NCBI GenBank assembly: GCA_903847465.1 | Contig: CAINDQ010000156.1 | Span: 1-35,302, forward strand | DNA length: 35,302 bases | From: an uncultured Candidatus Peregrinibacteria bacterium | GTDB taxonomy: Bacteria > Patescibacteriota > Gracilibacteria > UBA1369 > LOWO2-01-FULL-3 | Direction: 5' to 3' | In this document: piece after piece, positions 1-23,296 of the stretch | How the letters are laid out: each line of letters opens with the position of its first letter | How positions within the stretch are numbered: the first letter of the stretch is position 1 | Translations under genes and position numbers: made by a program | Notes under the pieces: model-generated | The model's input: only the letters and a program-made list of their open reading frames with translations | The model's database searches: none | Told to the model about the DNA's origin: nothing

Positions 1-1597
1 GCTCTTGGAAAAGAGAATGAAACAGATCGTGAAACAGAATCAGAAATTTGTGAGGAAAGAAGAACCGGGCGATAAGGCGCTCGAATTTCTGCATCAGACA
101 GGGCAGATTTACAAAAAAGAATTGGCGGCGGAATATATAAAAGAAGGACAAACAATCAGTTTTTACGAGAATGTGATGCCTGATGGAAAAGCGATGTTTG
201 TGGATATGTGCGAAGGTCCGCATTTGGATAGCACAGGCAAACTTGGCGCTTTCAAACTCACTCATACTGCCGGTGCGTACTGGCGTGGAGACAGTGAGCG
301 TCCAATGCTACAGAGAATTTATGGAGTTTGTTTTGCGACGCAGGCGGAACTTGATGATCACTTAAAGATGCTGGAGGAAGCCAAAAAACGCGATCACCGA
401 AAACTTGGAAAAGAATTAAGTATATTTTGTTTTGATGATGATGTTGGTCCTGGATTGCCTTTGTGGCTACCAAATGGTGGAATTTTGATTGAAGAATTGG
501 AGAATTTGGCGAAAAAAATGGAAGAAAAAGGCGGATACAAAAGAGTACGCACGCCTCACTTGGCAAAAGAATCCATGTATTTGAAAAGTGGACATTTGCC
601 TTATTACAAAGAAACAATGTTCCCTCCGATGATACTAGATGAAGGCGTGAAATATTATCTAAAAGCGATGAACTGTCCTCATCACCACAAGATTTTCGCG
701 GCGGAACCAAAGAGCTATAGAGACCTGCCATTGCGTCTTGCGGAATATGGGACGTGCTATCGTTTTGAGCAGACCGGTGAGCTTTTTGGGCTGATGAGAG
801 TGAGATGTTTGCAGATGAATGATGCTCATATTTACTGTACAAGAAAACAATTTGAGGCTGAATTTCAGGCTGTGAATGAGATGTACATGAATTACTTTAA
901 GATTTTTGGAATTGAAAAATACGTGATGAGATTTTCAACTCATGACCCAGCGAGACTAGGAGAAAAATTTGTAAATGAGCCAAAACTTTGGAAAGAAACT
1001 GAAGATATGGTGAGAGAAGTTTTGATCAAAACGAAAACTCCATATGTTGAGGTAGCGAATGAAGCGGCTTTCTACGGCCCAAAAATCGATGTTCAGATTT
1101 GGAGTGCGATCGGCAGAGAATTTACACTCGCTACAAATCAGGTAGATTTTGCGGTGCCGGCGAGATTTGGATTGGTGTTTACAAACGAAGAAGGAAAAGA
1201 AGAAACGCCACTTTGTATTCATCGTGCGCCACTCGGAACTCATGAAAGATTTATCGGATTCTTGATTGAACATTATGCGGGTGCATTCCCAGTTTGGCTT
1301 GCTCCTGTGCAAACTATCGTACTTTCTGTTTCTGAAAAATTTAATGAGTATGCGAAAAAAATCGCCGCCGAGCTGAAAGAAAATGGAATCAGGGTGGAAT
1401 TTGATGACTCAAATGAAACTCTGGGAAAGAAAATCAGATCTGCAGAAATGCGAAAAATTCCATACATGCTTGTAGTGGGAGAAAAAGAAGTCACGGATGA
1501 AACAGTAACTGTTCGTGATTACGCCACAAAAAAACAGGAAGCAATGGGATCTGCTGAGTTTGTAAAGAAAGTCGTTTCCGAGGCGAAGATTTACTAG
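1..1597 (+). CDS. thrS: Threonyl-tRNA synthetase, 5'-truncated by window edge
   Basis: Frame is open to the window edge (codon before the listed TTG is CTC). Contains ThrRS motifs: GDSERPMLQRIYG, MNCPHHHKIF, LPLRLAEYGTCYRFEQTGELFGLMRVR, CIHRAPLGTHERFIGFLIEHYAGAFPVWLAP, plus a C-terminal anticodon-binding domain. Ends TAG. Confidence 0.96.
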   Translation, partial: LLEKRMKQIVKQNQKFVRKEEPGDKALEFLHQTGQIYKKELAAEYIKEGQTISFYENVMPDGKAMFVDMCEGPHLDSTGKLGAFKLTHTAGAYWRGDSERPMLQRIYGVCFATQAELDDHLKMLEEAKKRDHRKLGKELSIFCFDDDVGPGLPLWLPNGGILIEELENLAKKMEEKGGYKRVRTPHLAKESMYLKSGHLPYYKETMFPPMILDEGVKYYLKAMNCPHHHKIFAAEPKSYRDLPLRLAEYGTCYRFEQTGELFGLMRVRCLQMNDAHIYCTRKQFEAEFQAVNEMYMNYFKIFGIEKYVMRFSTHDPARLGEKFVNEPKLWKETEDMVREVLIKTKTPYVEVANEAAFYGPKIDVQIWSAIGREFTLATNQVDFAVPARFGLVFTNEEGKEETPLCIHRAPLGTHERFIGFLIEHYAGAFPVWLAPVQTIVLSVSEKFNEYAKKIAAELKENGIRVEFDDSNETLGKKIRSAEMRKIPYMLVVGEKEVTDETVTVRDYATKKQEAMGSAEFVKKVVSEAKIY

Positions 1598-4500
1598 TGA
1601 TGACCGTGTCCGCTACTAACTGCGCCAAATTCACTGCCGGCTTCGGCTGGAGCTTCTCTTCTTTTTATCATTGAGTCAAAAGGCATTCCTATTAGATTGG
1701 CTCCGTTGATAACTTCCATCATCTTTGCTCCATCATCAGCCGCTACTACGGCTTCGAAAGCTTCATCAAAACCTTCCAAAGCCAACTGAATTCTACGCTG
1801 AAGAGCTTTATTATTTGGATCTTCCATATCCATTCCACTTGTGTCTGTATGAATCAACTCAAGCCTTTCTTTCAACTGAGCATTTTGGTAAGCATCAGCA
1901 ATTTTCAAAACCACAGCATTTAATTCTCTGAAAAATGTAGCTGGAACAACATCACTAACAATTGTCTTTCTATTCAGGGTGTTTTTATCCATGTGATAGT
2001 AAAGCTTGCTACCTTTTTCCCATCTTTCCAGCATAATTGCTTCATATCTGACGTATGATTTTACGGCCTGTTGCAGTCTTGTATAGTTTCCATATTCAGA
2101 CAATTTCTTGAAATATTGACTAAATCCTGGAGCCACGTTCGCATAACCCTCACTGGTAAGCAAAAACTTTCCACTACCACGACCTCCTGCCGTTCCACAA
2201 GCACTGGTCAAGATGGATGTAGATGCTGGAGGAAGGTAGGCAAACATATCATCATGATCCAATTTATCAGCATTTCTCAAATCCTTATTGCAACGTGTTT
2301 CATTTTCATAACTAGGAATGATATATCTCCAGAGGAATTCACTAACCCGCTCTGTAGGTTTACAATTAGAAGAATCGCCACCATCAAAATAGGCTAACCA
2401 TCTCTTGTAATCATCTTTTGTCCAACGATGTGGTTTTGGCTTTCCATCGGGACCTTTACGCATTGCCATGGCTGTCATGTATTCCAAAATCGGAAATTGT
2501 GCCAGCATTTCAGAATTGATATGACCAATTCTATCGAAACTTAAAATGGTATGGCCATGATGATTTTCGGCTGTAGCGGCGGCAACCATGAAATATAGTT
2601 TCGTTTCCATGGAAGATTTTCCCGCATCGATCATATGCAAAATCAATCCTTCAAATTCCATCGGATCAACGAATTCGTTGTTTTTGTGGCGTTTCAATAA
2701 TTTCTCAAGGGCTCTGCCGTGACCACCGGTGATAGACTCCAACTCTTTACCTTTTTCATACCATGATCTTGCGCCGGATTGACGAGTTGATTTGTCTTTG
2801 GAAACCCAATGATCATAAGTACTTTCTCCCCATATTGAGTCGATCGCTCCCTGTAAACAGTCTAGACCAGTACGATCATCTTCCTTGCTAATATGAGTAT
2901 ATGGATCGCCATTGGATGGGATCGGAATCAGTCTTCTAGGATCCGGAACGAATTGATTTAAATTCTTCCACATATCGATATCGTCCCAACGCATATGTCC
3001 TTTTTCCGCTAAGTCCTCAATACAAGCTTTCATTTCATCCTTGTTGTGAGTAACACGGAGACGTTCCTCAATTTCAAACACACCTTTTTGAGAGAATGAT
3101 TCATGGAATTGGTGCACCTCATCGTTTTCTGCCTGCTGTTTAATTCTACGCATTTCCGAACTAAAGAAAGGCAAGTCTTCACCAATGGTAGAATATCTGT
3201 CTTTTTGTCTTCTTTCCCAACGCCTCTGATAATAATCATAGCCGGCTTTTCCCATTTGCCACAAATCACTTCCACTTAAAACCTTTGTATTATCCCAAAG
3301 CTTACGCAGAAAACCTCTTTCTTCGAAACTCATTCCTCCAACTTTATAGATCTCATCATATGTCAAAGCCTCCGCCTTGATCTCTTTACTTTGTTTTTTT
3401 GGCGCTTCTTCAGCTTCTTCGGCTGCTTTTTCTGCGGCTGTTTGTTTTGGATGTTTTTTTTCTTCTTCGGCTGCTGCTGCCTCTAAATCGGCTGTTGGGT
3501 CTGCTGGATGCGCTGGAGCTGCTGTTGGATGGGCAGGTTCCGCTGGATGCGCTGGTTCCGCTGGATGCGCTGGTTCCGCAGGATGAGCTGGTTCCGCAGG
3601 ATGAGCGCCTTCCGCTGCGACATTTCCTTTGTGGACCATTTCAGCGAAGGCAGGTGCTGAAGAAGATGTTCTTTCGATTCTGTATGATTTATTAGGAGCT
3701 TTTGCTTTTGAGGCGACTTTTGCTGAAACAGCGCCGAGTGCTGCTCCGACTGCGGCAAATAAACCTTCTTCTCTTTCCGCAAAGGCATCTTCGGGAGTTT
3801 TTGGACCATCTGGAACTAATATTTCCAGACCAAATTTATCACCATCATCTGTGCTAATAAATGCTGTGCGTGGTTCGCCAATGTCGGAATAAACTTTGAT
3901 TTCTTTTGGTGGCTCGCCTACTTTTGGCAATTCAAGTCTACCTAAATCCTCTCCGGAAAATCCAAACTCTTCAGCTGTTTTTCTGCGTGATGCTACTTCT
4001 CCATCCAATACTTTTTGCAAAGAATCTTGAGGAGTTAGGACGCGAGAATAATTATGCTGAATGATGAATTTTGCGAATTCTCCAGGAGAAAATTCTTTCT
4101 GTTCGCGATCGAAATAGAGAGATGGATGAACTGAATATGCCAAGCGTTCCTTTTCTGTTTTTGTGACAGAATGATTGAGAACTATGAGTGGTTCTTTCCC
4201 CGCAACCTCTTCTATTCTTTCAATTTCAAATTCTTTAGTGCCAATAATTTCATCACCTTTATCATTGAAATCTCTTACTTTTGCGGAAAATTTATCTCCT
4301 TGGGAAAGTGGTTTGAAATGAGTTTGTTTGCCAATGCTGTGATTTAGTTCTTCCAGCGTCATGCCTTCCTGATGAGTTTCTTGTTCGTTCGCTTTTTTCA
4401 AGAAATTCACATAACCAGTAGTCTTTTTTACGCCTTGCTCATCAGTAAATTCGACCATGAGCTCACCAATGGCTGTACGAAGATCAGGATCTGTTTTGGC

Positions 4501-5682
4501 ACTTTTTGGAAGATCCAATTTATCAAAATACACTCTATCGATTGTGATTGTGCCGAATCTTTTTGTGGTAAGTCCCGTTTCCGGATTCGTAACTGTGCCA
4601 CCAATTTCCAAAGAACTACTTTGGGAATCGTCCAGCGCGACTTGATCAAAAAACCATCTCTTTAATTTCTTGGCCTCGCGAAGATCGATGCCGGATTCGG
4701 ACAATAATACATCAAATTTCTTGAACATTTTCAGAGAACGTTCGCGCCAATCGTCGTATTCAGCAAGCGCTTCTTTGGCTTCCTGCTCGATAGTTGCCAT
4801 CTGACGTTCCATCTCCACTTTTTGCGCTTCGAGAGCTTGGAGGCGGACAGTTAAGGATTCTTTTTTTGATGAATCAAGGCCTGGCGATTTTAATTCTGCG
4901 GCAACTTTTTCACATTCTTGGTAAGCAGAAATATATTTTTTTGATAACTTTTGATATTGGGCATCGAGAGATTTTAATTCTTCCAAAAGACCTGTGCGTG
5001 GAGGTTCGACTTCCCAATTTCCAACTCTCAAACCTTTGTCTTCGGGAACGTCGAGAGTTCCTTTGAGATCTGCTAGAGCGTTGATTTGGCCATTTGTAGC
5101 CGAAGTTTCGGTATTTGTTTCAACGCGAGTTACTGTTTTATCAGCAGCTTCTTTAGCGTTTTGGATGGTGTCTTTCGCTCGATTTTCATCAAGTTTCGCT
5201 ATGTATTTATCCTGATTTTTTGGAACAAGCGGACCTGAATGGCCTCTGATTTCTTTCAAAATTCCCATCACACATTCCTTTTCATTTTCGCCACCTTCGA
5301 TGGCTTCCAAGAATCTAGGAATTTCTTTTCCACGGGCTGGGAACTTGCCGTCGCCCATGGCCTTCATCAAAAGATAATATGGATTGAGATCGTCTTTTGG
5401 ATAAATGCCTTCACGCAGAACTCTGTTCTTGTGAAGCTTTTCGATGATGCGAGGATCCAGTGCTGAAGCGCCTACGAATTGTTCTTTTCTCAGGCCTAAT
5501 TGGCTGATTTTTCTTTCCTGGGCTTCGGTCAATTCTGCTGTTTTTTTGAATCCAGCAGCGCCTACTCCTGTGCGAATTTTTGAGTCTTCGTTACTGCCAT
5601 CAGCAAAAGAAAGCTGACGAGAAGGAAAAAATTCGGAGGAATGGTCGTGAGTGCTATGATTGTGTAGAAATTTTATTTGCAT
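1594..5682 (-). CDS. Large uncharacterised protein (1362 aa) with His-rich termini, a coiled-coil-like segment and a HPAEPA repeat linker
   Basis: Single long ORF. Last gene of a five-gene minus-strand cluster. No family recognised. N-terminus MQIKFLHNHSTHDHSS, C-terminus SSGHGHH, central (HPAEPA)n. Confidence 0.9.
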   Translation of the reverse strand: MQIKFLHNHSTHDHSSEFFPSRQLSFADGSNEDSKIRTGVGAAGFKKTAELTEAQERKISQLGLRKEQFVGASALDPRIIEKLHKNRVLREGIYPKDDLNPYYLLMKAMGDGKFPARGKEIPRFLEAIEGGENEKECVMGILKEIRGHSGPLVPKNQDKYIAKLDENRAKDTIQNAKEAADKTVTRVETNTETSATNGQINALADLKGTLDVPEDKGLRVGNWEVEPPRTGLLEELKSLDAQYQKLSKKYISAYQECEKVAAELKSPGLDSSKKESLTVRLQALEAQKVEMERQMATIEQEAKEALAEYDDWRERSLKMFKKFDVLLSESGIDLREAKKLKRWFFDQVALDDSQSSSLEIGGTVTNPETGLTTKRFGTITIDRVYFDKLDLPKSAKTDPDLRTAIGELMVEFTDEQGVKKTTGYVNFLKKANEQETHQEGMTLEELNHSIGKQTHFKPLSQGDKFSAKVRDFNDKGDEIIGTKEFEIERIEEVAGKEPLIVLNHSVTKTEKERLAYSVHPSLYFDREQKEFSPGEFAKFIIQHNYSRVLTPQDSLQKVLDGEVASRRKTAEEFGFSGEDLGRLELPKVGEPPKEIKVYSDIGEPRTAFISTDDGDKFGLEILVPDGPKTPEDAFAEREEGLFAAVGAALGAVSAKVASKAKAPNKSYRIERTSSSAPAFAEMVHKGNVAAEGAHPAEPAHPAEPAHPAEPAHPAEPAHPTAAPAHPADPTADLEAAAAEEEKKHPKQTAAEKAAEEAEEAPKKQSKEIKAEALTYDEIYKVGGMSFEERGFLRKLWDNTKVLSGSDLWQMGKAGYDYYQRRWERRQKDRYSTIGEDLPFFSSEMRRIKQQAENDEVHQFHESFSQKGVFEIEERLRVTHNKDEMKACIEDLAEKGHMRWDDIDMWKNLNQFVPDPRRLIPIPSNGDPYTHISKEDDRTGLDCLQGAIDSIWGESTYDHWVSKDKSTRQSGARSWYEKGKELESITGGHGRALEKLLKRHKNNEFVDPMEFEGLILHMIDAGKSSMETKLYFMVAAATAENHHGHTILSFDRIGHINSEMLAQFPILEYMTAMAMRKGPDGKPKPHRWTKDDYKRWLAYFDGGDSSNCKPTERVSEFLWRYIIPSYENETRCNKDLRNADKLDHDDMFAYLPPASTSILTSACGTAGGRGSGKFLLTSEGYANVAPGFSQYFKKLSEYGNYTRLQQAVKSYVRYEAIMLERWEKGSKLYYHMDKNTLNRKTIVSDVVPATFFRELNAVVLKIADAYQNAQLKERLELIHTDTSGMDMEDPNNKALQRRIQLALEGFDEAFEAVVAADDGAKMMEVINGANLIGMPFDSMIKRREAPAEAGSEFGAVSSGHGHH
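3501..3612 (-). repeat. Short in-frame tandem repeat (~18 bp unit) encoding HPAEPA-type repeats
   Basis: Encodes HPAEPAHPAEPAHPAEPAHPAEPAHPTAAPAHPADP. On the + strand the unit reads approximately gctggttccgctggatgc. Confidence 0.85.
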
Positions 5683-5733
5683 TCTGACGTTAGGATAAAT
5701 CTTTAAGTGTTAATTGGGCAAGAGATTTGGGAT

Positions 5734-8406
5734 TTAAGGGTTTAGCTTTAAGGCTTTTTGCACTTTAGTTAGGGTATCTTGCGCCTTTCCTTTTGCGGCG
5801 CTGGCGGCGGCTGAGTCTATTGTAACTACTCCACCTTTTCCACGTTCTCCAACCGCTTTTCTAGTCTTGTCATCTGTTATTTTCTTAATATCAGTTTCTG
5901 CATCAACTGGCACAAGAGTGGCTCCTTCAGCCCCAATTCTAAATACTTTAGTCTTTCCCCCTTGGCCAAATTCCAAGGTCGCTTCTCCTGTTTTTTCTGA
6001 CACATAAATTATACCTTTATCGCCGGCTGCGTCAGCCTCTGGGGCAGGACCGTCAATTGGGCGAGCTATGTCTCCGAGATTCTTTTTGTCGTGGGATACT
6101 AATTCCGATCTTTCTGCTTTTTTAGCTGCTACTGCCTTGTCGCGAGTTGCTTTTGCTACTTTCAAATCATCTGGAGCGACGGCATCAGTAGACGCATTTC
6201 CGTCTGCATTAAAGAGATTGTCACTAGTTTCACTCATGTAATATGGTTTGCCTTTAATAGTAACCTCGGTGAAATCATGGTCTGTTTTGAGGTCTGTTTT
6301 TGCTGGTTCAGGAGTGGTAACTGCTGCGGCTGCTCCAGCTGCTGCTGTTGTTCCGGCTGCTGCTGCACCTGGAGGAGGAGGTGTCGGAGCCTCGACCTTT
6401 TTTGCATCAACATCGCTATAATTTTTTCGGATATATTCGTTGATGTCCACACCTTTTTGCTTTCGTGTTGTTTCATTTTTGTCTTCTTTGAAATCAATTA
6501 GCATTTTATACAAGTCCTTATCTTTTTGGACAGTTGAATCTCGAAGTGTTGTTACAAGAAGTTTATTATTACGATCGAGAGATTTGACCATATCATCAGA
6601 ACCATCGGCAAATTGTTTTTTCGAACCCTCGCCCTTTAATACTCCTACTGCACCTTGAGCCGTAGTTTCTTTACCTAGGTCTTCTGCGTTGACGTTGTTC
6701 TTTTTGAACAGCCAAGCAAGTTCAGGATTATCCACCAAGTCTGTGTTAGGCTGATCTAAATTTTGAGTAAGTGTTTTTAAACCATGAGTTACAGCTCCGA
6801 GACTATATTTATTGCCTTTGGCACCAATTGGGATAATTGGTAAATGTTTGAATGGCAAAGTGCCTATTAATGTGCCGGCAGATTTCAACCAGCCTTTCAT
6901 TGTTCCTGTTACTGTACCCGCTATCGTGCCCTCTGCGGCTTCAAATACGCCCATCCAGATAATGGCTACACAACCTACCGCTACAACTAAATCTTGGAGA
7001 GTGCTTAGGCCGACGATAGGAACACCCATGGACACATCGGTGCCTTGAACAAGGACATTTTGCAAATTTGTTTTACTAACAGTTCTTAACATAATCCATC
7101 CTATTGAAAGCGCAAAAGCGATAGGGATTGGAACAAACAAATGTTTTGTAAATTGTTCGGAAATTTTGCTAACTGCGGATAGTTGTTCTTTTAAAGCGGG
7201 TACTGCCATCGTTACAATGATAATCGGCGAGAGCGCAATAGAAATCCACATCACAACAAGCCTAGCAAGCAATACTATCAATAAGGCTACAAAAGATGCC
7301 GAGAAAAGAATAAACATAACCAATCCAAATATTACATTGATGGCTATTTTACTGACGTCATCAACTGTTTTTAAGTTGGTTGTATCCAAATTTGAGATGA
7401 ATGGAATTTTCATCATATTTACAGCCATAGCGGCGGCGACATTGCTTTGAGTGAGTTTGCCAAAATATTCGTTACCTTTCTTAGCCAATTTTATTCCATC
7501 ACATATTGGGTGGTAGCCAATTGTATTCTTACCATCTGGGTCTGGCGCTACTTCAGCCTTAAATTTTGCTTTTTGTTCGGCGGTGAGACTGGAAGCATCA
7601 ACTTTGCCTAAGAGCGAGCTTGCAGTATCGTCTGTTACAACTTTAATCCCATACATTGAAGCCATACGTTTGGTATATTCATTTTTTGCGCCTTCATTGA
7701 GTTTTGTGGCAGTATCTTTTGTTTCTAACTCTGCGGGTGTAGCAAAATCAGACTTCTTATATCCTGATAAGCCTATACAAAACTCTTTTTGAGTTTCGGG
7801 AGATAAGGTCACATCGCCCAAGTCAAGCTGGGCAGGTAAAGCAAAAATCGCAGTGCTCACGACATTCACAACATCGAGAGCGACTTTGATTCCTAAAAAC
7901 GAAAAATTCACGGCAATAATTCCAATAATAATCTGCGGTAAAGCCGCTTTGATGGCGTAAGCACCGCCGTCTTCTCCCAGCCCGGTGATGTTGTATAAAG
8001 CGATACCGACCAAGGCGACCACAAAGAAAATATTCACAAGATTACGGATCGGAATCCAGATGTCTTGCAATGTTTGAGCCATTCCTGCGCCAAAAAGCAG
8101 ATTATTGTCCATCAAGCCTCCAATCATATATAGGACTGGCCAAATCGCCTGACTCAAAAATGACTGAATCTCCAAAACAGCATCGATTCTCTCCATGGTT
8201 TTGGCTTTTGCGGCGGGAGTTGGCTCAGTTGCCGCATAGGCTGTATGCGAATTTTGGATGGTGGCATTTTTTATTGCCGCATCCTGTGCAATCAGAGAAT
8301 TGGCAGAATAGTTGGCGATCTCCGGTGCAGTGATCACAAGGATCAGTGAACAAATGATCAGAATGAAAATTCTTTTTATCCAGTTTTTTTGTGTTTGTTT
8401 TTTCAT
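5734..8406 (-). CDS. Polytopic membrane protein, VirB6/TrbL-like (type IV secretion-type), 890 aa
   Basis: N-terminal signal/TM (MKKQTQKNWIKRIFILIICSLILVITAPEIA). Multiple TM segments including ALPQIIIGIIAVNFSFLGIKVALDVVNVVSTAIF and FVALLIVLLARLVVMWISIALSPIIIVTMAVPALK. Cytoplasmic-like charged C-terminal half with a Pro/Ala linker. Topology and the LLARLVVMWISIALSPI-like segment resemble VirB6/TrbL-like proteins. Confidence 0.65.
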   Translation of the reverse strand: MKKQTQKNWIKRIFILIICSLILVITAPEIANYSANSLIAQDAAIKNATIQNSHTAYAATEPTPAAKAKTMERIDAVLEIQSFLSQAIWPVLYMIGGLMDNNLLFGAGMAQTLQDIWIPIRNLVNIFFVVALVGIALYNITGLGEDGGAYAIKAALPQIIIGIIAVNFSFLGIKVALDVVNVVSTAIFALPAQLDLGDVTLSPETQKEFCIGLSGYKKSDFATPAELETKDTATKLNEGAKNEYTKRMASMYGIKVVTDDTASSLLGKVDASSLTAEQKAKFKAEVAPDPDGKNTIGYHPICDGIKLAKKGNEYFGKLTQSNVAAAMAVNMMKIPFISNLDTTNLKTVDDVSKIAINVIFGLVMFILFSASFVALLIVLLARLVVMWISIALSPIIIVTMAVPALKEQLSAVSKISEQFTKHLFVPIPIAFALSIGWIMLRTVSKTNLQNVLVQGTDVSMGVPIVGLSTLQDLVVAVGCVAIIWMGVFEAAEGTIAGTVTGTMKGWLKSAGTLIGTLPFKHLPIIPIGAKGNKYSLGAVTHGLKTLTQNLDQPNTDLVDNPELAWLFKKNNVNAEDLGKETTAQGAVGVLKGEGSKKQFADGSDDMVKSLDRNNKLLVTTLRDSTVQKDKDLYKMLIDFKEDKNETTRKQKGVDINEYIRKNYSDVDAKKVEAPTPPPPGAAAAGTTAAAGAAAAVTTPEPAKTDLKTDHDFTEVTIKGKPYYMSETSDNLFNADGNASTDAVAPDDLKVAKATRDKAVAAKKAERSELVSHDKKNLGDIARPIDGPAPEADAAGDKGIIYVSEKTGEATLEFGQGGKTKVFRIGAEGATLVPVDAETDIKKITDDKTRKAVGERGKGGVVTIDSAAASAAKGKAQDTLTKVQKALKLNP

Positions 8407-8410
8407 ATTA

Positions 8411-10027
8411 TTATTGGAAAAGTATTTTTAAAATTGATGAAATAAAAGAATGATTATCGATCACTTGTAGAGGAAGAAAGAAAGTTGCGGCGTAGACTGC
8501 TTTGCCGACTCCGACTGCTGTACAAACGCCAGCCCCGACAGCTACTTTTCCTGGAATACTCATACCTTCTTCTGGCTGTTGTTCTGGGAATGTTTCGCCA
8601 TTATAGCCTCCTGGGTTTTCTCCTTTGGAAGTACCATTATTTGAATCTCGTTTATTTGGCTCAGGTTGATCTTGGTTGTCTTCCCCTTGGCCACCTTGGT
8701 CACCTTGACTTTGACCTTCTCCGTTTTGGCCTTTTCGATTTTGACCATTCCTGTTTGAATTTGCTCTTCTTCTGGTTCCGTTTCTTGGGTTTGTAACAAT
8801 TTTGCTTTTACCGTTGCGGATTCCGGCGAATTCTTTTTGGATAGTTGGCTTTTGACCACCAAAAATCGATTCAAGTCTGGATTCGTCCCGATCGGAGGTG
8901 CCTCCACTTCCACTTATAGATATTCCTGCGGATGCCCTGTCTGAAACTGGAGTCATTGATGATACGCCACTCCCATCAGAGCTATCACTTGGGATCCCAG
9001 GAAGAGCGCTCATTGAAAAACCTTCAGTCGGGATGACCACAGGTTCCGGCAATTTTGCTGGATCCACATAGCTTGGAGAGATATCAGCCGCTTTTTTGAT
9101 TGGCATTTTTGCTCTTCTATCCGCCATTTTTGCGTATTTTGCGGCAAAGGTATCGGTCTGTGTAATTGCCGTTACCAAAATTGTATCTTTTATAGGCGTT
9201 CCATCATTCCCATAAATATTTCCATCTTTGTCCAAGTACATATTCTCAAGTTCTTCTTTGTTCATTGGGACACCTAGACGATTGCAAGTTGCAAGAACCT
9301 TCTCTATTTCTGCTTGAGACATATTTAGTTTTTCGGCATCACCTTTCTCTACCTGATATTGCAAAGTTTCGGCGATAGCTACGCCAATTGCGGCCTGAGT
9401 GACCGGACTGCCATTCCCATAATACAAACAGCCATCGCTACTTCCGTAATACATATAATCAAGATCTCTCTCGGAAATCAGCACACCTTTCTGGCGACAT
9501 TTCTCGATAACTTCCTGCTTTTCTTTGTCAGAGAGAACCATCATCTGATAATTCTGTTTGGTAGAATTATCGGTAGTTTGATCATCTCCTTGTGAATTTC
9601 CGGATTTAAGCCCGATGGCTTGAGAAACAGCAGATTGATAGTCTGCAACTGTGATATTTTCAACTAAACCGATGCCCAAATCGTTAAAAATATTGGCGAA
9701 AGCAAGGATAGAATCCTTGGTCATATTTCCAAGACGAACCATTTCTCGAATTTTTGGAACGGTATGTTTGTAGAATTGTTCGTGTGTTTTTTTGTAATCG
9801 TCAGACTTCGCTTCCAAATAATCGATGTAATCGTAATTGCGATGTTGAAGTGTTTCAGGGATCTGATTTCTATTTGTCACTCTCAACTCTTTGGTATATT
9901 CAGCAAAAATTCTCACACCCATATATCCGGAATATTGGCTTATAAATACGCCATTCGGACCTGTCCACTCAGGTGTGGATCCAATCTTTTGCGCCAATGA
10001 TTTTAGGGCTGCGGGATTGATTTTCAT
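8411..10027 (-). CDS. Uncharacterised protein (538 aa) with an internal ~56 aa duplication, a disordered NG/Q-rich region and a C-terminal hydrophobic segment
   Basis: Long ORF in the cluster. Two internal repeats (aa ~165-221 and 236-291) and C-terminal GKVAVGAGVCTAVGVGKAVYAATFFLPLQ. Confidence 0.88.
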   Translation of the reverse strand: MKINPAALKSLAQKIGSTPEWTGPNGVFISQYSGYMGVRIFAEYTKELRVTNRNQIPETLQHRNYDYIDYLEAKSDDYKKTHEQFYKHTVPKIREMVRLGNMTKDSILAFANIFNDLGIGLVENITVADYQSAVSQAIGLKSGNSQGDDQTTDNSTKQNYQMMVLSDKEKQEVIEKCRQKGVLISERDLDYMYYGSSDGCLYYGNGSPVTQAAIGVAIAETLQYQVEKGDAEKLNMSQAEIEKVLATCNRLGVPMNKEELENMYLDKDGNIYGNDGTPIKDTILVTAITQTDTFAAKYAKMADRRAKMPIKKAADISPSYVDPAKLPEPVVIPTEGFSMSALPGIPSDSSDGSGVSSMTPVSDRASAGISISGSGGTSDRDESRLESIFGGQKPTIQKEFAGIRNGKSKIVTNPRNGTRRRANSNRNGQNRKGQNGEGQSQGDQGGQGEDNQDQPEPNKRDSNNGTSKGENPGGYNGETFPEQQPEEGMSIPGKVAVGAGVCTAVGVGKAVYAATFFLPLQVIDNHSFISSILKILFQ

Positions 10028-10028
10028 A

Positions 10029-11603
10029 TTATGGGGTTGCTGGTTTAGTTGGTGGGGCTGGTGGTGGCGTTACGGGTTGAGCTGTCGGAGTTGCCGCTGG
10101 TTTTGAAGTATCTTCCTTTGGTGTGTTTGTGGGACCTTGTTTGGCTTCAACTAAAGCTTCTTGATAAAGCTCTCCGGCATTATCGGCAGGACCGATGTTT
10201 AATTTTGCAAAAGCGAAGGCTAATTTTTTGAATCTTGTGCCGGTTAGGTCGGCGTTGCCTTCATTCGATTCCACTTTTTTTAACTGCGCTAGCAACTGAT
10301 CATATGGCTTGGTTGGATCTTCTTTTTTCATATTCTCCAAAAACAATTTGAAATTTTCGAAAGTGGCTTCGTTTTCTTGGAAATTGTTATCCTTGTTTTT
10401 TTCGGAAACGAAACTGGCAAGAGTTTTGACTCCGAAAGAATCACCAGAAGGATCCTTCATTTCAAGAGCGCTCTTCCAGCCTCTAGGACTTGCTGAAACT
10501 ACTTTCAATAAACCCTCGAGAGCTTTGTTGTGATCCTGAGTATCACGTGTTTCTTTTGAAGCTAATAATTCTCCAATACTTTTATCGCTACCAAATATTG
10601 CGGCGGCCCCAATTTCTCCAAGACCAAATAAAACATGAGGAATTTTGAAAGCATAGGATGGGTCTTTTTTGATCTCTTTGAAATTTACGATCCAGTTGAG
10701 GAGTACTGTCGCACTACCTGCAACATAACCAAATAATCTCATGAAACCGGAAAGTGTAAACATTTCATTGGCGGCATTTTTTGCGCCATAAGATTCGACG
10801 CAAAGCCTTTTGGCTTCCTGCATAAAATCATATTTTTCTTCCCAAGCGACAGAGATCCCGTCCAAAAATTTTCCCCATTCTGCTTCTTCTTCTGGAGTTG
10901 CACCTGCTTTTGGACCGATTGCTTCATCAACTTCGAGCGGTGAAACTGCACCTTTTTCACAAAGAGCTTTGAAGAGTTCTTGTTTTTGGGCAACATCCAT
11001 TTTTTTCACAGCGTCAGATTCCAAACATTTATCGATGATGTCTTTTCTTTTTTGAGGTTTGGCAAAAGCCATAAGGGTACAAGAAAAGGCAAAATTTGGG
11101 TCTGGATAGCGAGGACCTGTCAAAGCCTTTACCATCTCGCCTATTGGATTTGTCCCTGGATCAATTTCTGTTTGAGCACTAAAAATAAATTTCACGGCAT
11201 CTTTCACCCAAGCATACTGTGGATTTTTTTCTGAAGCCATCAAAAGATCACCCAAAGCATTTCCGTAGCTTTGCGCCTTTGCCAAAGTTTCCAGAGTTGT
11301 TTTAGCATCGTCAGGAGAAAGACTGGCGGCAAGGGATCTGATGATAGTTAATTTTTCTATAAGCCTCTTTTCCACCTTGGCTCTTTCTTCGACGATCTTG
11401 TCTGCTGGAACGCTCGTCGCAACATTAATCCACTCTTGCAAAAGAGCGTTTATTGGACTCGATAAAATGTCGTTTTCTGCAATAGCAGCAGCCATTCCGG
11501 CTCTGTCCGTACGACTGCCGGTTTGAAGCTTTTCGTGTAGATAATCGAAAGTTTCTTTGATTGCTTTTGTTGCAGGCTCACCTAATCCAGCTGGGATTTC
11601 CAT
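10029..11603 (-). CDS. Uncharacterised mostly alpha-helical protein (524 aa) with a central hydrophobic stretch and Pro-rich tail
   Basis: Long ORF. LFGYVAGSATVLLNWIVNF and PHVLFGLGEIGAAAIFG are hydrophobic; tail is PTAQPVTPPPAPPTKPATP. Confidence 0.87.
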   Translation of the reverse strand: MEIPAGLGEPATKAIKETFDYLHEKLQTGSRTDRAGMAAAIAENDILSSPINALLQEWINVATSVPADKIVEERAKVEKRLIEKLTIIRSLAASLSPDDAKTTLETLAKAQSYGNALGDLLMASEKNPQYAWVKDAVKFIFSAQTEIDPGTNPIGEMVKALTGPRYPDPNFAFSCTLMAFAKPQKRKDIIDKCLESDAVKKMDVAQKQELFKALCEKGAVSPLEVDEAIGPKAGATPEEEAEWGKFLDGISVAWEEKYDFMQEAKRLCVESYGAKNAANEMFTLSGFMRLFGYVAGSATVLLNWIVNFKEIKKDPSYAFKIPHVLFGLGEIGAAAIFGSDKSIGELLASKETRDTQDHNKALEGLLKVVSASPRGWKSALEMKDPSGDSFGVKTLASFVSEKNKDNNFQENEATFENFKLFLENMKKEDPTKPYDQLLAQLKKVESNEGNADLTGTRFKKLAFAFAKLNIGPADNAGELYQEALVEAKQGPTNTPKEDTSKPAATPTAQPVTPPPAPPTKPATP

Positions 11604-11607
11604 GATA

Positions 11608-12183
11608 TTAGATTTTAAATAATCTTATTAAAACGTCTGAAAATGATTCTGTTTTGCCTTCCATCTCAGGGATTTTGTTAAGCAGAAAATCTCGGATAGG
11701 AGCGGGATCCATGCCGGCCAATTGAATAGTGATTTCGCCGGTAAAGTTTCCTTCCACACGCAAATTTAAAGTTTCCACATAGGGTGGTTCATAAACAAAC
11801 CAGAAAGCCCTGATCTTTGTGAAATTATATTTTTTGTAGCCGACTTTGATGCCGACTTCGGAAATTTTTATTTCTACATTGCGAGGATGTTGTAGGTGTA
11901 CAAGCGCGTACACGGCTGCAAAAACCACAACCACCAAAGCAAATGACCAAGCCTGAAAATAAAGGCTCAAGATCGCCACTAAAGCGACAACCGAAACCAT
12001 ACTTATTTTCCAGATCCAACCCCTGTCGTGCATGACATATTCGGGAGCGACCCAAGAGAAAGCGGCATCGTCGTAGTAAGATGGCGCATTTTTGATTTCA
12101 TGCATCAACTGATGGCGAGCTTCTTTCTTTTGAGCTCGGTGTAGTTTGTGCTGATGATATTTTTCTTTTAGTTTTGAAAGCAT
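11608..12183 (-). CDS. Membrane protein with two TM helices followed by a PH-like beta domain (191 aa)
   Basis: Hairpin TM WIWKISMVSVVALVAILSLYFQAWSFALVVVVFAAVYALVHL, then beta-rich VEIKISEVGIKVGYKKYNFTKIRAFWFVYEPP. First gene of the cluster. Confidence 0.82.
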   Translation of the reverse strand: MLSKLKEKYHQHKLHRAQKKEARHQLMHEIKNAPSYYDDAAFSWVAPEYVMHDRGWIWKISMVSVVALVAILSLYFQAWSFALVVVVFAAVYALVHLQHPRNVEIKISEVGIKVGYKKYNFTKIRAFWFVYEPPYVETLNLRVEGNFTGEITIQLAGMDPAPIRDFLLNKIPEMEGKTESFSDVLIRLFKI

Positions 12184-12225
12184 TTGTTTTTGTTTTACTT
12201 TTTAAATCTAAATATTTTATCATAA

Positions 12226-12249
12226 AAAGCCCTCGAAAGGAAGGGCTTT
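12226..12249 (-). terminator. Hairpin terminator after rpsR
   Basis: Perfect 8-bp stem AAAGCCCT/AGGGCTTT with 8-nt loop; minus-strand reading is followed by a short T-run (GGGCTTTTTATG). Lies between bS18 and the 191 aa gene. Confidence 0.65.
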
Positions 12250-12281
12250 ATATGCAGTCTTACTAGTTTTTCAGTGTTTGT

Positions 12282-13993: not shown

Positions 13994-15232
13994 ATGGATC
14001 AATTGGACACAACGACATTAGAAACCACACTTGAGGTAAATCATTTTGCCCGAAGAAGCCGTCACGTAAAGGTTTTTTCAAAAGCCACTCGCGTCTGGTT
14101 TCATTTTGTAGATATCTTGAAATGGATGGTTTCCCCTATAAGCAGGTTCCTTCAAAATAGATTTTTCAAAGCTATTGGAAAGTTTGTGGAGGCAATGTTC
14201 CAAACGATCGCAAAGGCAATGCCGATTCTTTCTCCTCAGAAAAAAATACTTCTGCAGGCGACTTTGCTTTCCGGCACTGTTCTGATCATAAGCTCATTAA
14301 GTCCGGGAGCCGTCTACACTTCCACCGAAACCAACTATGCAAAATCATATATCAATGAATATTCAATGCCTGGAGATGTGCTTGTGGCTGACGAGAATGG
14401 TTACTTGGTAAAAAGTAATCCTCAAACAGATCGAGCAAGCAGAATTGGTATGACTGATTATGCTGTACATACTGTAGAAGGCGGAGAATCAATGTCTGTA
14501 ATTGCGGAGAAATATGGAGTAAGCGTGGAGACTATTATGTGGGAAAATAAAATTGGAAATGCGAATGCTTTGAGAGTTGGCCAAAAGTTGGTTGTTCCTC
14601 CAGTCAGTGGTGTCAGCTACAAGATTGTGGCGAACGATACTCTCGAGAAGGTGGCCAAGAAATACAATATTACAAAAGACGTTATTATCGCTCAGAATGG
14701 ATTGGCTAGCGAGGCTTTGATCAAGGGGCAGACTTTGTTCTTACCTGGAGCAAAACCATTCGTAGATCCTGCTACAATCGCAACGGCAAATCGCCGTGCG
14801 ACAACCGGCGCCGTCAATAAATACATTTCCGCAAATCCATCCGATGCATCACCTTCTGTCGGAAAAATATTTATCTATCCATCTCTCGGAAAAATCACTC
14901 AATCTTTTCATGCTGGTCACTACGCGCTTGATATCGCGGATAGTTCTAGACCTCCGATCTGGGCCGCTGGTGGCGGTACGGTCGTCAAAGCTTCTTCTGG
15001 AACGTGGGGCGGTGGATATGGAAATCACGTCATCATTGATCATGGTAATGGCGTAAAGACGTTGTATGCTCACATGACGAGCCTGAACGTGTACGAAGGC
15101 CAGTACGTAAACCAAGGTGACGTTATTGGAATAATGGGAAATACGGGACGTGTTTATGGAATAACAGGTATTCATCTTCATTTTGAAGTTATCGATCACG
15201 GCGTAAAGAAAAATCCAAAATTGTATTACTAA
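13994..15232 (+). CDS. Membrane-anchored LysM-containing M23 family metallopeptidase
   Basis: Two LysM repeats ([32 protein letters not shown]..., [29 protein letters not shown]...) and an M23 domain with [13 protein letters not shown] and HLHFE motifs. Confidence 0.95.
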
Positions 15233-15527: not shown

Positions 15528-16610
15528 TTGGAGAAGAAATATTTTTTAGGGTTGGACGTTGTGAAAGTCTTGGCCATTGCGTGGATTTGTCTTTTTCATA
15601 TATTCAATTACAGGACTGATTGGGCGATCGGAGTATTGTCTGGCTCAGAACATATTTCTTATTTTTTTAATGGCACTGAGGGGTTTTGGGCTAGTTTTCT
15701 AAAATCATTTATCAGCTTTGGATCATTGGGCGTGAATTTATTTATAATTGCTTCCGGAGTTGGATTGACCCTTTCAAGAAATCACGATAGAACTAAATTT
15801 TTCCAATTTATAAAGAAGAGATTACTGAGGATTTTTCCTTTGTACTGGGCAATCTTGGCGTTTTATTTGTTGATTGAAATCATCAAGAATCATCCGATTA
15901 ATTATATCGATTACGCTGTTCATTTTTTAGCTATACAGAATTTCTTTCCTCAATATTTACTAAGTATAGCGGCGCCTTTTTGGTTCATATCAACAATCAT
16001 CCAACTCTATATCTTATTCCCATTTCTATATGCTCTCTCAAAAAGACACTGGGTTGTTCCTATAATATTGGCCATCTTATTTAAAATTTTTGTAGCCCCT
16101 CAGCTGATTGCTTTTTTCGGAGGAGGAAGATTTTTCACGGAATACATTATTGATTTCACCGTTGGCATAACGCTTGGCAACATTCTGGTTGCGAGACCAC
16201 AAATTTTCAACAGCAAAAAATGGCTTTTGCTTATCCCAATCTTTCCAATAACTTTTGCAATTTGGGCATTCGTAACTTTCAATTCGTACGAATATTCAAA
16301 TGCCGTATTCCGCCTGACTTTCCAACTATTAACCATGTTGTTTTGCATTATCACTTTTACTTTATCTACATTTTTTAGCGGCAAGATCGCTTCGTTTATA
16401 AAATTATTATCGACTCTGTCTTTTACGGTCTTCCTAACTCATTACTTTTTAATCACTGAAATAATCAGAAGATTCAGTTTCCGGATACCATTCCCACTGG
16501 AAGCAGTGATCTTTGTAATAGCTTCTTTTTCCTTAGCTTATCTGATAAATCGGGCGATCAAGATCCTTCTTGACTTTACGGCAAGGATCATTAAAATTGC
16601 TTCGGTTTAA
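15528..16610 (+). CDS. Acyltransferase 3 (OafA/YrhL-like) membrane protein
   Basis: YFLGLDVVKVLAIAWICLFHIF N-terminus and about ten TM segments. TTG start proposed. Confidence 0.82.
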   Translation: MEKKYFLGLDVVKVLAIAWICLFHIFNYRTDWAIGVLSGSEHISYFFNGTEGFWASFLKSFISFGSLGVNLFIIASGVGLTLSRNHDRTKFFQFIKKRLLRIFPLYWAILAFYLLIEIIKNHPINYIDYAVHFLAIQNFFPQYLLSIAAPFWFISTIIQLYILFPFLYALSKRHWVVPIILAILFKIFVAPQLIAFFGGGRFFTEYIIDFTVGITLGNILVARPQIFNSKKWLLLIPIFPITFAIWAFVTFNSYEYSNAVFRLTFQLLTMLFCIITFTLSTFFSGKIASFIKLLSTLSFTVFLTHYFLITEIIRRFSFRIPFPLEAVIFVIASFSLAYLINRAIKILLDFTARIIKIASV

Positions 16611-16620
16611 CCAAAGCACC

Positions 16621-18159
16621 ATGTCAATTAAATGCGCATTAGTCAGCGTTTCTGATAAGAGTGGAGTTGTTGAATTTGCCAAGCAGCTATCTGCACTCGG
16701 CATCGAAATTCTATCAACCGGCGGAACTGCCAAAGCTCTGAAAGAAGCGAACGTAAAAGTTACAGATGTTTCAGATTACACAGGCTTTCCAGAGATGATG
16801 GATGGTCGTGTCAAAACTCTTCATCCAAAAATTCATGGAGGAATTTTGGCGCTTCGTGACAACAAAAGTCACATGGAAGAAGCCACCAAAAATGGCATCA
16901 AGATGATCGATTTAGTTGTCGTGAATCTTTATCCATTCGAACAAGTGACGGCAAAAGAAAATGTGACAGAAGAAGAAGCAATTGAAAACATCGATATTGG
17001 CGGGCCTTCAATGGTGAGAAGTGCCGCAAAAAATTTCAAATATGTAACAGTGATTACGAGTCCTGATGATTACGACTGGGTTGCCGAAAAAATTAAAAAG
17101 AATGGAAATACAGATTTGGAACTTCGCAAAAAATTAGCCCGCAAGGCCTTCACTCTTACTCATAAATATGATGATGGCATTGAACATTATTTGAGACTTT
17201 CTTTGGGAGAACCGGAACTTTTGCATTTGCATTACGAAAAAGTAACTAGTTTGAGATATGGCGAAAATCCTCATCAGAAAGCCGCTTTTTTCCGCAATCC
17301 AGACAACGAGGATTCCAATATTACAAATTCCACAGTGCTTCATGGCAAACAAATGTCCTTCAATAATATTGTGGATGGAGACAGCGCGCTCGAACTCGTA
17401 AAAGAATTCAAAGAACCAACAATCGTACTGGTCAAACACAATAATCCATGTGGAGTTGCCAGTGCGAAAACTATCGAAGAAGCTTTCAAACTTGCACATA
17501 TGGTCGATCCGATTTCCGCTTTTGGATGCATCATCGCTTCAAATAGAGAAATCAATACCGACATCGTCGACTACATGAAAGAGGCAAAGATGTTTGTGGA
17601 AATGATCGTGGCGCCTACTTATGAAGAAAAAGCGCTTGAGAGACTAAAGACCAGAGAGAATTTGAGAATTGTAGAGGTTGGTCCGCTCAAACTTGATATG
17701 AAGAAAACTGATATAAAGAAAGTGGCTGGCGGACTTTTAATTCAGACAAAAGACATGTACGAACTTCAGCCTTCAGATCTGAAAGTTGTGACCCAGAAAA
17801 AACCTACAGATGAAGAAATTGCTTCCATGCTATTCGCTACAAAAGTGGTAAAACACGTGATGTCTAATGCCGTAATAATGGCTAAAGGAACTGTTGTAAT
17901 GGGAGTTGGTGCTGGACAAATGTCTCGTGTGGATAGCGTGAGTATCGCCTGTCAAAAAGGTGGAGATAAAATAAATGGTTCTGTAATGTCTTCCGACGCT
18001 TTCTTCCCTTTTGCGGATGCAATGGAGCTGGCGGTGAAACACGGAGTGACTGCAATTATCCAACCAGGTGGATCAATCCGTGACGAAGAAATTGTCAAAA
18101 GAGCCGACGAACTTGGCATCAGCATGGTGTTTTCTGGAAGAAGATATTTCAGGCACTAG
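16621..18159 (+). CDS. purH: Bifunctional AICAR transformylase/IMP cyclohydrolase
   Basis: MSIKCALVSVSDKSGVVEFAKQL (MGS-like domain), LRYGENPHQKAAF, VKHNNPCGVA and NAVIMAKG...VGAGQMSRVDS. ATG at 16621 preferred over the listed upstream TTG at 16570. Confidence 0.97.
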   Translation: MSIKCALVSVSDKSGVVEFAKQLSALGIEILSTGGTAKALKEANVKVTDVSDYTGFPEMMDGRVKTLHPKIHGGILALRDNKSHMEEATKNGIKMIDLVVVNLYPFEQVTAKENVTEEEAIENIDIGGPSMVRSAAKNFKYVTVITSPDDYDWVAEKIKKNGNTDLELRKKLARKAFTLTHKYDDGIEHYLRLSLGEPELLHLHYEKVTSLRYGENPHQKAAFFRNPDNEDSNITNSTVLHGKQMSFNNIVDGDSALELVKEFKEPTIVLVKHNNPCGVASAKTIEEAFKLAHMVDPISAFGCIIASNREINTDIVDYMKEAKMFVEMIVAPTYEEKALERLKTRENLRIVEVGPLKLDMKKTDIKKVAGGLLIQTKDMYELQPSDLKVVTQKKPTDEEIASMLFATKVVKHVMSNAVIMAKGTVVMGVGAGQMSRVDSVSIACQKGGDKINGSVMSSDAFFPFADAMELAVKHGVTAIIQPGGSIRDEEIVKRADELGISMVFSGRRYFRH

Positions 18160-19967: not shown

Positions 19968-20984
19968 ATGGGGAAAATAAAAGACTACAGAATAGCAACT
20001 CTGGGTAGCCACACGGCTTTGCAAATACTGAAAGGCGCTCACGACGAAGGCTTCAAAACCATTTGCATATGCGAAAAAGGCTCAGAGAGACCATACCAGT
20101 CATACGGAGTCGCTGATGAAATTATCAGTGTCGATTCTTTCAAAGACTACTTCAAAATCGAACCTCAATTGATAAAAAAGAAGGCAATTTTGATTCCACA
20201 TGGATCGTTTGTAGCGCATGTGGGAGCCTCTAAAGCCAAGGAGATAAAGGCTATGCATTATGGCGCGAGAGGAATTCTGGAATGGGAAGCGGATAGAGAG
20301 AAACAGAGAGAATGGCTGGTGAAAGCCGGCATCAAGGTTCCAAAAATCATCAAAAGTCCGAAAGAAATCGATCGCACAGTGATCATAAAATTTCACGGAG
20401 CAAAAGGTGGACAAGGTTATTTCTTGGCAAACAATGAACGCCAATTCAAAGAAAGAATTAAGGAATTTCCGGATAATGACGGATATGTAATTCAAGAATA
20501 TATCGTTGGAGTTCCGGTTTATACTCACTATTTTTACAGCAAATTGACTGGCGAATTGGAGATAATGGGATTCGATAAAAGGTATGAATCAAATGCCGAT
20601 TCCATTGGACGCATAGCCGCAAAAGATCAGGTAGATGCCAATATTCACACTACGTATACAATCGTTGGAAATTCTTCATTGGTGGTTCGTGAGTCTTTGC
20701 TCCCTGGTATGTTTGAAATGGGAGATCAGGTAGTGGCAGCTTCGAAAAAATTGGTAGATGGTGGCTTATTTGGGCCATTCTGCCTTGAAGGAGTCATCGA
20801 TCCAGAACTTAATTACTACGTTTTCGAAATCTCGGCTAGAATCGTTGCTGGTACAAATCCATATATCGAAGGTTCGCCTTACACAGCGCTGAAATACAAG
20901 GAACCGATGAGCACGGGCAGAAGGCTGGCTCGTGATATCAAGATGGCGATTGAGGGAGACCAGCTCAAGAAAATTCTGGGGTAA
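19968..20984 (+). CDS. purP: PurP-type formate-dependent AICAR ligase (FAICAR synthetase), paralog 1
   Basis: IATLGSHTALQILKGAHDEGF, VIIKFHGAKGGQGYF, YESNADSIGRIAAKDQ, RESLLPGMFEMGDQVV, GPFCLEGVI, VFEISARIVAGTNPYIEGSPYTALKYKEPMSTGRRLARDIKMAIE match archaeal PurP consensus from memory. Confidence 0.9.
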   Translation: MGKIKDYRIATLGSHTALQILKGAHDEGFKTICICEKGSERPYQSYGVADEIISVDSFKDYFKIEPQLIKKKAILIPHGSFVAHVGASKAKEIKAMHYGARGILEWEADREKQREWLVKAGIKVPKIIKSPKEIDRTVIIKFHGAKGGQGYFLANNERQFKERIKEFPDNDGYVIQEYIVGVPVYTHYFYSKLTGELEIMGFDKRYESNADSIGRIAAKDQVDANIHTTYTIVGNSSLVVRESLLPGMFEMGDQVVAASKKLVDGGLFGPFCLEGVIDPELNYYVFEISARIVAGTNPYIEGSPYTALKYKEPMSTGRRLARDIKMAIEGDQLKKILG

Positions 20985-22090: not shown

Positions 22091-23296
22091 ATGATCAATC
22101 AACAAGACATTTTGGAAATTCTGAAAGGTTATGATTTGAAGAATATTACGATTGGAGTTTTGGGTGGGCATAGCGCCTTGGATGTGTGCAGTGGAGCCAA
22201 AAAATACGGATTCAAGACTGTGGCGGTTTGCATGAAAGGCAGACACGAGACCTATTCAAAATACTACAAAACTCGTAAAGATTCGTATGCGCCGACAGGC
22301 GAATTGGGTTGTATTGATGAGATAATCGAGGTTGATCATTTCAAAGATATCGTGAAACCAGAAGTGCAAGAAAAGCTTCTAAAAATGAATACGATTTTCA
22401 TTCACAACAGATATTTCTGGGTATATTGCGACTTCGCGGAAATTGAAAATTCTTTCAAAGTGCCAATCTTTGGTTCGAGAGAATTAGTGAAATTGGAAGA
22501 GAGAGATTTTCCAAAAAACCAATATTATCTTCTGGAGAAAGCTGGCATCAGAATGCCAAAAATCGTTCGCTCTGGAGATTCCAAAATGAGCGCAGAAGAT
22601 TTACAAAAAGCATTCAAGCAACATTTCGAAACAGAAAAAGGTGGACCACTTATCATCAAAGTAAATGAGGCAAATAGAGGATACGAGAGAGCATTCTTCG
22701 TGGCGACTTCTGCTGCTGATTTCGAAAAGATCAGCTCAAAAATGCTCGCGGACGGAAAGATTCTCCAAAAAGATTTGGACAAAGCAGTAATCGAAGAATT
22801 CGTACTTGGCGCGCAGATCAATTTCAATTATTTCTATTCCCCTCTCGAGGACGGACTCGAAATAATGGGGACAGATACCCGCAGACAGACTTCGCTTGAT
22901 GGATTTCTCAGGCTCGATGCTTCTACTCAAATGTCGCTTCTCGATGCTGGATACAAACCATCAATGATCGAAACCGGCCACATCGCTTGCACCACAAAAG
23001 AATCGATTTTGGAAAAAGCTTTTGCGGCAGGTGAGAAATTCGTAAAAACTTTGAAGGAAGAAGTGGCTCCGGGAATAGTCGGACCTTTCGCTCTACAAGG
23101 CGCTATCGCGGCCTATGACGGCAAGGAAGAGTTCGTGGCGTTCGATGTCAGTATGAGAATTCCAGGCTCGCCAGGGACCAGATTTACGCCTTGTACGTCA
23201 TATCTATATGGCGAACCAATGAGCTACGGCGAAAGAATCGCTCTCGAGATAAAGAAAGCGGTGGAACATGATAGATTGATTGAAGTGCTGAGCTAG
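22091..23296 (+). CDS. PurP-family ATP-grasp ligase, divergent paralog 2
   Basis: DILEILKGYDLKNITIGVLGGHSALDVCSGAKKYGF, EEFVLGAQINFNYFYSPLEDGLEIMGTDTRRQTSLDGFLRLDA, GPFALQGAIAAYDG, YGEPMSYGERIALEIKKAVE. Same architecture as PurP, but ISARIVAGTN is replaced by VSMRIPGSPGTRFTP. Confidence 0.85.
   Translation: MINQQDILEILKGYDLKNITIGVLGGHSALDVCSGAKKYGFKTVAVCMKGRHETYSKYYKTRKDSYAPTGELGCIDEIIEVDHFKDIVKPEVQEKLLKMNTIFIHNRYFWVYCDFAEIENSFKVPIFGSRELVKLEERDFPKNQYYLLEKAGIRMPKIVRSGDSKMSAEDLQKAFKQHFETEKGGPLIIKVNEANRGYERAFFVATSAADFEKISSKMLADGKILQKDLDKAVIEEFVLGAQINFNYFYSPLEDGLEIMGTDTRRQTSLDGFLRLDASTQMSLLDAGYKPSMIETGHIACTTKESILEKAFAAGEKFVKTLKEEVAPGIVGPFALQGAIAAYDGKEEFVAFDVSMRIPGSPGTRFTPCTSYLYGEPMSYGERIALEIKKAVEHDRLIEVLS

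Follow-up and report, generated by a model that had tools for sequence, protein, structure and literature searches.

A probable operon for the VirB6 platform of a dispersed type IV secretion system in Gracilibacteria

Five adjacent genes in a DNA stretch of 35,302 nucleotides from an uncultured Candidatus Peregrinibacteria bacterium (assembly GCA_903847465.1, contig CAINDQ010000156.1; the whole stretch is termed the window below) encode proteins designated here, from the upstream end of the cluster, P5, P4, P3, P2, and P1. The cluster is probably the operon that encodes the VirB6 'inner-membrane platform' of a dispersed, chromosomal type IV secretion system (T4SS) in Gracilibacteria (Peregrini- and Peribacteria), and its 890-aa member P2 is almost certainly a VirB6 protein. 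All five open reading frames (ORFs) lie on the minus strand between rpsF-ssb-rpsR on the upstream side and thrS on the other, as an earlier reading of the window made from its letters (the sequence-only reading) had described; the gaps from P5 to P1, which that reading had put at about 1-50 nt, were computed as 4, 1, 4, and 51 nt, while P1 and the convergent thrS share 4 nt. The five ORFs are regarded as real genes because homologues in the same order are present in relatives, down to 15-35% identity. The source metagenome-assembled genome (MAG) comprises 1.39 Mb in 159 contigs and is 95.9% complete. Relatives of P2 are carried by MAGs of Peregrinibacteria, Peribacteria, and Gracilibacteria, and we infer that the genome is that of a Patescibacterium of the class Gracilibacteria (Peregrini-/Peribacteria).

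P2 and the VirB6/TrbL family

P2 (5734-8406, minus strand) is composed of a signal-like N-terminus, a polytopic core, a large loop, and a disordered C-terminal third. Its hydrophobicity profile contains seven windows over 1.6, including the signal-like one at the N-terminus, against a threshold of at least five segments. A profile of the P2 family, which was run over 287 Patescibacteria genomes, gave matches outside the class with E-values of 1e-19 to 1e-9, and these out-of-class matches are the same ORFs that score above the cut-off of the Pfam family TrbL (PF04610), for example in the genomes G257, G325, G132, G192, G318, G353, G236, and G382 (G, C, L, and f numbers are our handles for genomes, contigs, loci, and families). 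In eight loci fetched from other classes (L192, L193, L195, L196, L197, L199, L202, and L205), the P2-like ORF is located a few genes from VirB4, which was itself identified with E-values of 1e-248 to 1e-299. A hidden Markov model (HMM) of these eight virB4-linked VirB6 proteins recovers P2 of the window with E = 2.5e-21 and matched all 41 P2-family ORFs but nothing else among 632 ORFs, and HHalign of the P2 family against the virB4-linked VirB6 proteins gave 99.7% (E = 5.7e-26, 217 columns) versus 8.9% for a reversed profile control. It is on these matches that the assignment of P2 as a divergent VirB6/TrbL protein is based. The sequence-only reading had called the 890-aa protein VirB6/TrbL-like and had considered a match to an unrelated transporter family as the contrary outcome; the homology goes to virB4-linked VirB6 instead.

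Several sequence features are shared between P2 and the VirB6/TrbL/PrgH family, in which we include PF04610, TrwI of R388, and the virB4-linked VirB6 proteins of Patescibacteria. Both have a polytopic core with a large central loop, profile homology is found in both directions, and the core motifs IRN.VNI.FV (in P2 in the form W..IRN.VNI.FV) and RL..W..I..SP are common to both; a further core motif of P2 is VNFSF. Within P2, A58 is nearly invariant and its position is compatible with a signal-peptidase site, while the invariant pair Cys210/Cys302 in the large loop would fit an exported loop. In contrast to the other members, P2 lies below Pfam detection, is larger, has a long disordered C-terminus, and is encoded away from virB4 with class-specific genes on its flanks.

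An AlphaFold2 (AF2) model of residues 1-570 of P2 (pLDDT 72, pTM 0.65) was compared with known structures by Foldseek, and the VirB6/TrwI chains of R388 ranked top by probability (8rt9_F 0.80, TMt 0.40). As the E-value was 0.41, this match serves as corroboration only. Searches of PDB sequences with profiles of P1, P2, and P5 returned only coiled-coil or low-complexity noise.

Two side observations concern P2 homologues. In-frame TGA codons are present in those of some relatives from other orders (G098:C17 and G101:C3), consistent with the recoded TGA known from parts of Gracilibacteria. G029 carries two P2 copies (C11 and C78) with 41-42% identity to P2 of the window, which is unusual among the family members searched and reflects either a mixed bin or a true duplication.

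The conserved block and its other members

Relatives of P2 are present in 105 of 118 related genomes, and the gene order around P2 was taken from 40 loci. In the family and order of the source genome, P1 is located downstream of P2 in all 30 evaluable loci (one further locus stops at a contig or piece edge) and P5 upstream of P2 in all 28 (three further loci stop at such an edge), so that the co-occurrence of the five genes in related genomes, on which the sequence-only reading depended, was found. The block P5-P4-(P3)-P2-P1 is conserved in every evaluable locus of family and order, and the five-gene order with gaps of 1-4 nt is maintained over 8 families at 25-45% P2 identity. P3 is the variable member, since several relatives have a single ORF (P4) between P5 and P2. 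Among nine loci from other orders of the class, P1 adjoins P2 in one, and P5-X-P2 is retained in six in different genomic surroundings; in more distant orders the block divides into P5-X-P2 and P5-P1. The family f19, for instance, has P2 and P1 apart, with P5 immediately upstream of P1 in L230 and L231. Because P5 stays with P2 or P1 when these separate, the three genes appear tied together, and shared flanking synteny could hardly account for the link that P5 forms between P2 and P1.

The 98-nt gap between rpsR and P5 holds a terminator-like hairpin (12221-12254, minus strand; -16.3 kcal/mol, z = -4.9), and the cluster therefore probably starts its own transcription unit, apart from the rpsF-ssb-rpsR operon. 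The spacing of 1-51 nt would argue against separate transcription units for the five genes. At the other end, an additional conserved ORF family of 740-900 aa lies between P1 and thrS in L039, L040 (16339-18867), L041, L042, L045, and L051, and another additional ORF of about 450 aa occupies the P1-thrS interval of L046 and L047; these extra ORFs of 450-900 aa are absent from the window and gave no confident Pfam match.

P5 (11608-12183, minus strand; 191 aa) is a membrane protein with a PH-like domain, near-universal among Patescibacteria and genetically linked to VirB6. It consists of a short basic N-terminus, a membrane hairpin of two helices, and a cytoplasmic PH-like (DUF5673-like) domain, in agreement with its earlier description as a protein with two transmembrane (TM) segments plus a PH-like region. 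DUF5673 was matched in 4 of 35 P5 homologues (best E-value 3.9e-5), while P5 of the window itself gave no match. P5 resembles DUF5673 and other bacterial PH-like membrane proteins (PF18923) in its hairpin and PH-like domain; what differs is that the P5 family is Patescibacteria-wide and virB6-linked. The protein is encoded as a single copy in 233 of the 287 Patescibacteria genomes, and it lies within 25 kb of a VirB6-like ORF in 22 of 66 other-class genomes listing both (chance expectation about 7% per genome), a count that ignores phylogenetic non-independence. An identity of P5 with PrgI/VirB3 was rejected (HHalign 1.2%), PrgI being a separate gene in relatives.

P1 (1594-5682, minus strand; 1362 aa) is a large soluble protein with a coiled-coil N-terminal half, an AEPAHP low-complexity linker, and a conserved C-terminal half, and thus corresponds to the giant protein with coiled-coil-like and low-complexity regions previously noted. 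It is confined to the class, being present in 15 of the 18 genomes examined there and in none of 174 others. The model of its C-terminal half (pLDDT 83, pTM 0.80) is all-helical and matched neither solved nor viral structures, the best TM-scores being about 0.2; a reading of P1 as a phage structural protein found no support in the comparison with viral structures. P4 (10029-11603, minus strand; 524 aa) is a helical protein with a Pro-rich tail, and P3 (8411-10027, minus strand; 538 aa) is composed of two repeats of about 57 aa (E = 6e-9), a Gly/Asn/Gln-rich linker, and a weakly hydrophobic C-terminus. The helical character and Pro-rich tail of P4 and the repeats of P3, too, had been recognised, with two reservations on the earlier description: the hydrophobic centre ascribed to P4 is weak (Kyte-Doolittle maximum 1.38), and the C-terminal TM segment ascribed to P3 is only borderline (maximum 1.54). 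Neither a signal peptide nor a TM segment was clearly evident in P1, P3, or P4. The C-terminal 125 aa or so of P4 (391-514) show homology to the N-terminal part of P3 (3-135; HHalign 96.3%, E = 1.6e-9), and as this shared domain merges the two in automated clustering, the P3 and P4 families were defined by position.

Remaining components and competing readings

In relatives, further components of a T4SS are encoded at other loci. VirB4 (PF19044) scored above the cut-off in 53 of 60 relatives, including G001 of the same genus, and lies beside gyrA, in most cases also beside gyrB, with none of P1, P2, and P5 in its vicinity; conversely, no relative has VirB4 or PrgI at the cluster locus. PrgI/VirB3 was found above the cut-off in 46 of the 60 and adjoins, in the seven loci read, a lepA-like gene together with a conserved partner of about 250 aa. 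The T4SS pilin PF18895 is present in all 60 relatives and has 15 matches (VirB2-like pilins) in the source MAG. In the window, the sequence-only reading had seen no VirB4/VirD4 ATPase or relaxase, and a domain scan of the window's main other ORFs likewise revealed none among them; that reading had left the choice between a detached module of a T4SS-like system and a distinct apparatus, and the presence of VirB4, PrgI/VirB3, and pilins elsewhere in relatives favours the former. A VirB4-like gene elsewhere in the same genome, which had been proposed as a check, was not found in the MAG. In the MAG, about 0.8 kb separates the start of gyrA from the end of its contig, C49, while in G014 virB4 starts about 1.45 kb upstream of gyrA; as C49 ends short of the expected start, the absence of virB4 is probably due to a contig break.

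Three further observations were made at these loci. The partner of about 250 aa downstream of prgI was considered as TrsD, which could not be confirmed (no Pfam match, no HHalign match to VirB4). Beside virB4, most family and order loci encode a conserved protein of about 720-800 aa with an N-terminal membrane segment and no Pfam match (L077:2050-4221 and homologues), which was not found in the source MAG. In relatives (for example G056:C27, G038:C2, G058:C2), matches to PF18895 also fall within giant ORFs about 1,500-1,700 aa long, which often adjoin shorter pilin-matching ORFs.

In the proposed system, the genes would be split into the operon described here, virB4 next to gyrA/gyrB, prgI (virB3) next to lepA, and about 15 copies of T4SS pilins. 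P2 would be the VirB6 channel protein, as judged by homology, and P5 a membrane-anchored PH-like protein whose linkage to VirB6 suggests a role in the machine. P1, P4, and the variable P3, cytoplasmic, largely helical, and presumably co-expressed with VirB6, would probably act beneath the channel as a class-specific scaffold or as a layer for substrate docking, at the place where cargo recruitment would otherwise fall to VirB4 and the coupling protein. The T4SS of Saccharibacteria is essential (PMC10633639), and by analogy with it the machine would transport proteins or DNA between epibiont and host.

Several results weigh against this reading: the absence of a match of P2 above the curated Pfam TrbL cut-off, the non-significance of its Foldseek match, the non-independence of the genomes behind the P5-VirB6 count, the failure to find VirB4 or PrgI in the source MAG, and the lack of a detectable homologue of P1, P3, or P4 near VirB6/VirB4 in other classes. 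The first two would suit an unrelated polytopic transporter whose likeness to VirB6 reflects generic hydrophobicity. Pfam and NCBIfam scans gave no match for any of the five proteins, but since the bridging homologues exceed the cut-off, this is a matter of sensitivity and not a defining feature; these bridging proteins share the motifs of P2 and are virB4-linked, and with the specificity of the VirB6 HMM and the HHalign value far above its reversed control, the transporter reading is effectively refuted. An apparatus derived from VirB6 that works independently of T4SS ATPases, as a distinct envelope machine of the lineage, would accord with the missing VirB4 and PrgI of the MAG and with their absence from the cluster locus in every relative, but is very improbable given VirB4 elsewhere in most relatives, the same genus included, and a gyrA contig that breaks where virB4 is expected to begin.

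Somewhat less remote, but still unlikely, is that P2 is a VirB6 homologue while P1, P4, and P3 belong to a distinct complex, cytoplasmic or remodelling the envelope, which has no more than the operon in common with virB6 and P5. The lack of detectable counterparts of the three near virB6/virB4 in other classes and the parting of P1 from P2 in other orders speak for it, whereas P5 remains with P2 or P1 upon their separation and the tightly spaced five-gene order persists across families. As P1, P3, and P4 have no detectable counterparts near VirB6/VirB4 in other classes, it is from synteny that we infer them to be physical parts of the machine, and the dispersed T4SS with a VirB6 platform operon remains the preferred explanation. 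That Gracilibacteria possess a distinct T4SS subtype, in which a detached operon combines the VirB6 platform, a large, class-specific cytoplasmic assembly of P1 and P4/P3, and the Patescibacteria-wide P5, is proposed tentatively, at slightly less than an even chance.

Neighbouring genes, known systems, and significance

Elsewhere in the window, the main ORFs are ordinary genes. A LysM plus Peptidase_M23 protein (13994-15232, plus strand), divergent from rpsF, adjoins the cluster in many relatives and may serve the secretion machine; domains of this type are known from the VirB1-like hydrolases of Patescibacteria T4SSs (PMC12102498). Two PurP-type (DUF1246/DUF1297) genes (19968-20984 and 22091-23296, plus strand) near purH (16573-18159), together with a purN-like gene (25897-26475), are purine-synthesis remnants unusual for a Patescibacterium.

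Rickettsia is an unrelated lineage with a diderm system, and neighbours of the P1, P3, P4, or P5 type are not known from its T4SS. Its dispersed genes resemble those described here in being placed in separate chromosomal islands (cited in PMC12102498). With the T4SS of Patescibacteria related to MPF-FATA (PMC12102498) and that of Southlakia epibionticum, which is essential (PMC10633639), the relatives share VirB4, PrgI/VirB3, multiple VirB2-like pilins, and a chromosomal location, whereas in Gracilibacteria the genes are scattered over several loci instead of forming one cluster, and are accompanied by P1, P3, and P4, which are not described for those systems. VirB3 and TrsD are seldom near virB4 in Gracilibacteria (PMC12102498), and in a 2025 survey that covered 3,035 genomes, Microgenomatia and Gracilibacteria had little or no VirB6, which was taken as 'suggesting extreme sequence divergence' (PMC12102498). 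Our literature search found no paper linking Peregrinibacteria with VirB6.

Few machines of Patescibacteria have been shown to be essential for growth as an epibiont; the T4SS is among them, with VirB6 as its core channel subunit. P2 identifies the VirB6 subunit previously reported missing from Gracilibacteria, and the distance of its cluster from virB4 accounts for its having been overlooked by surveys of virB4 neighbourhoods. The cluster further provides new subunit candidates, one phylum-wide (P5) and three class-specific (P1, P3, and P4), and its five genes are kept together across a large group of very small, parasitic bacteria, in which the T4SS is thought to be used on their hosts.

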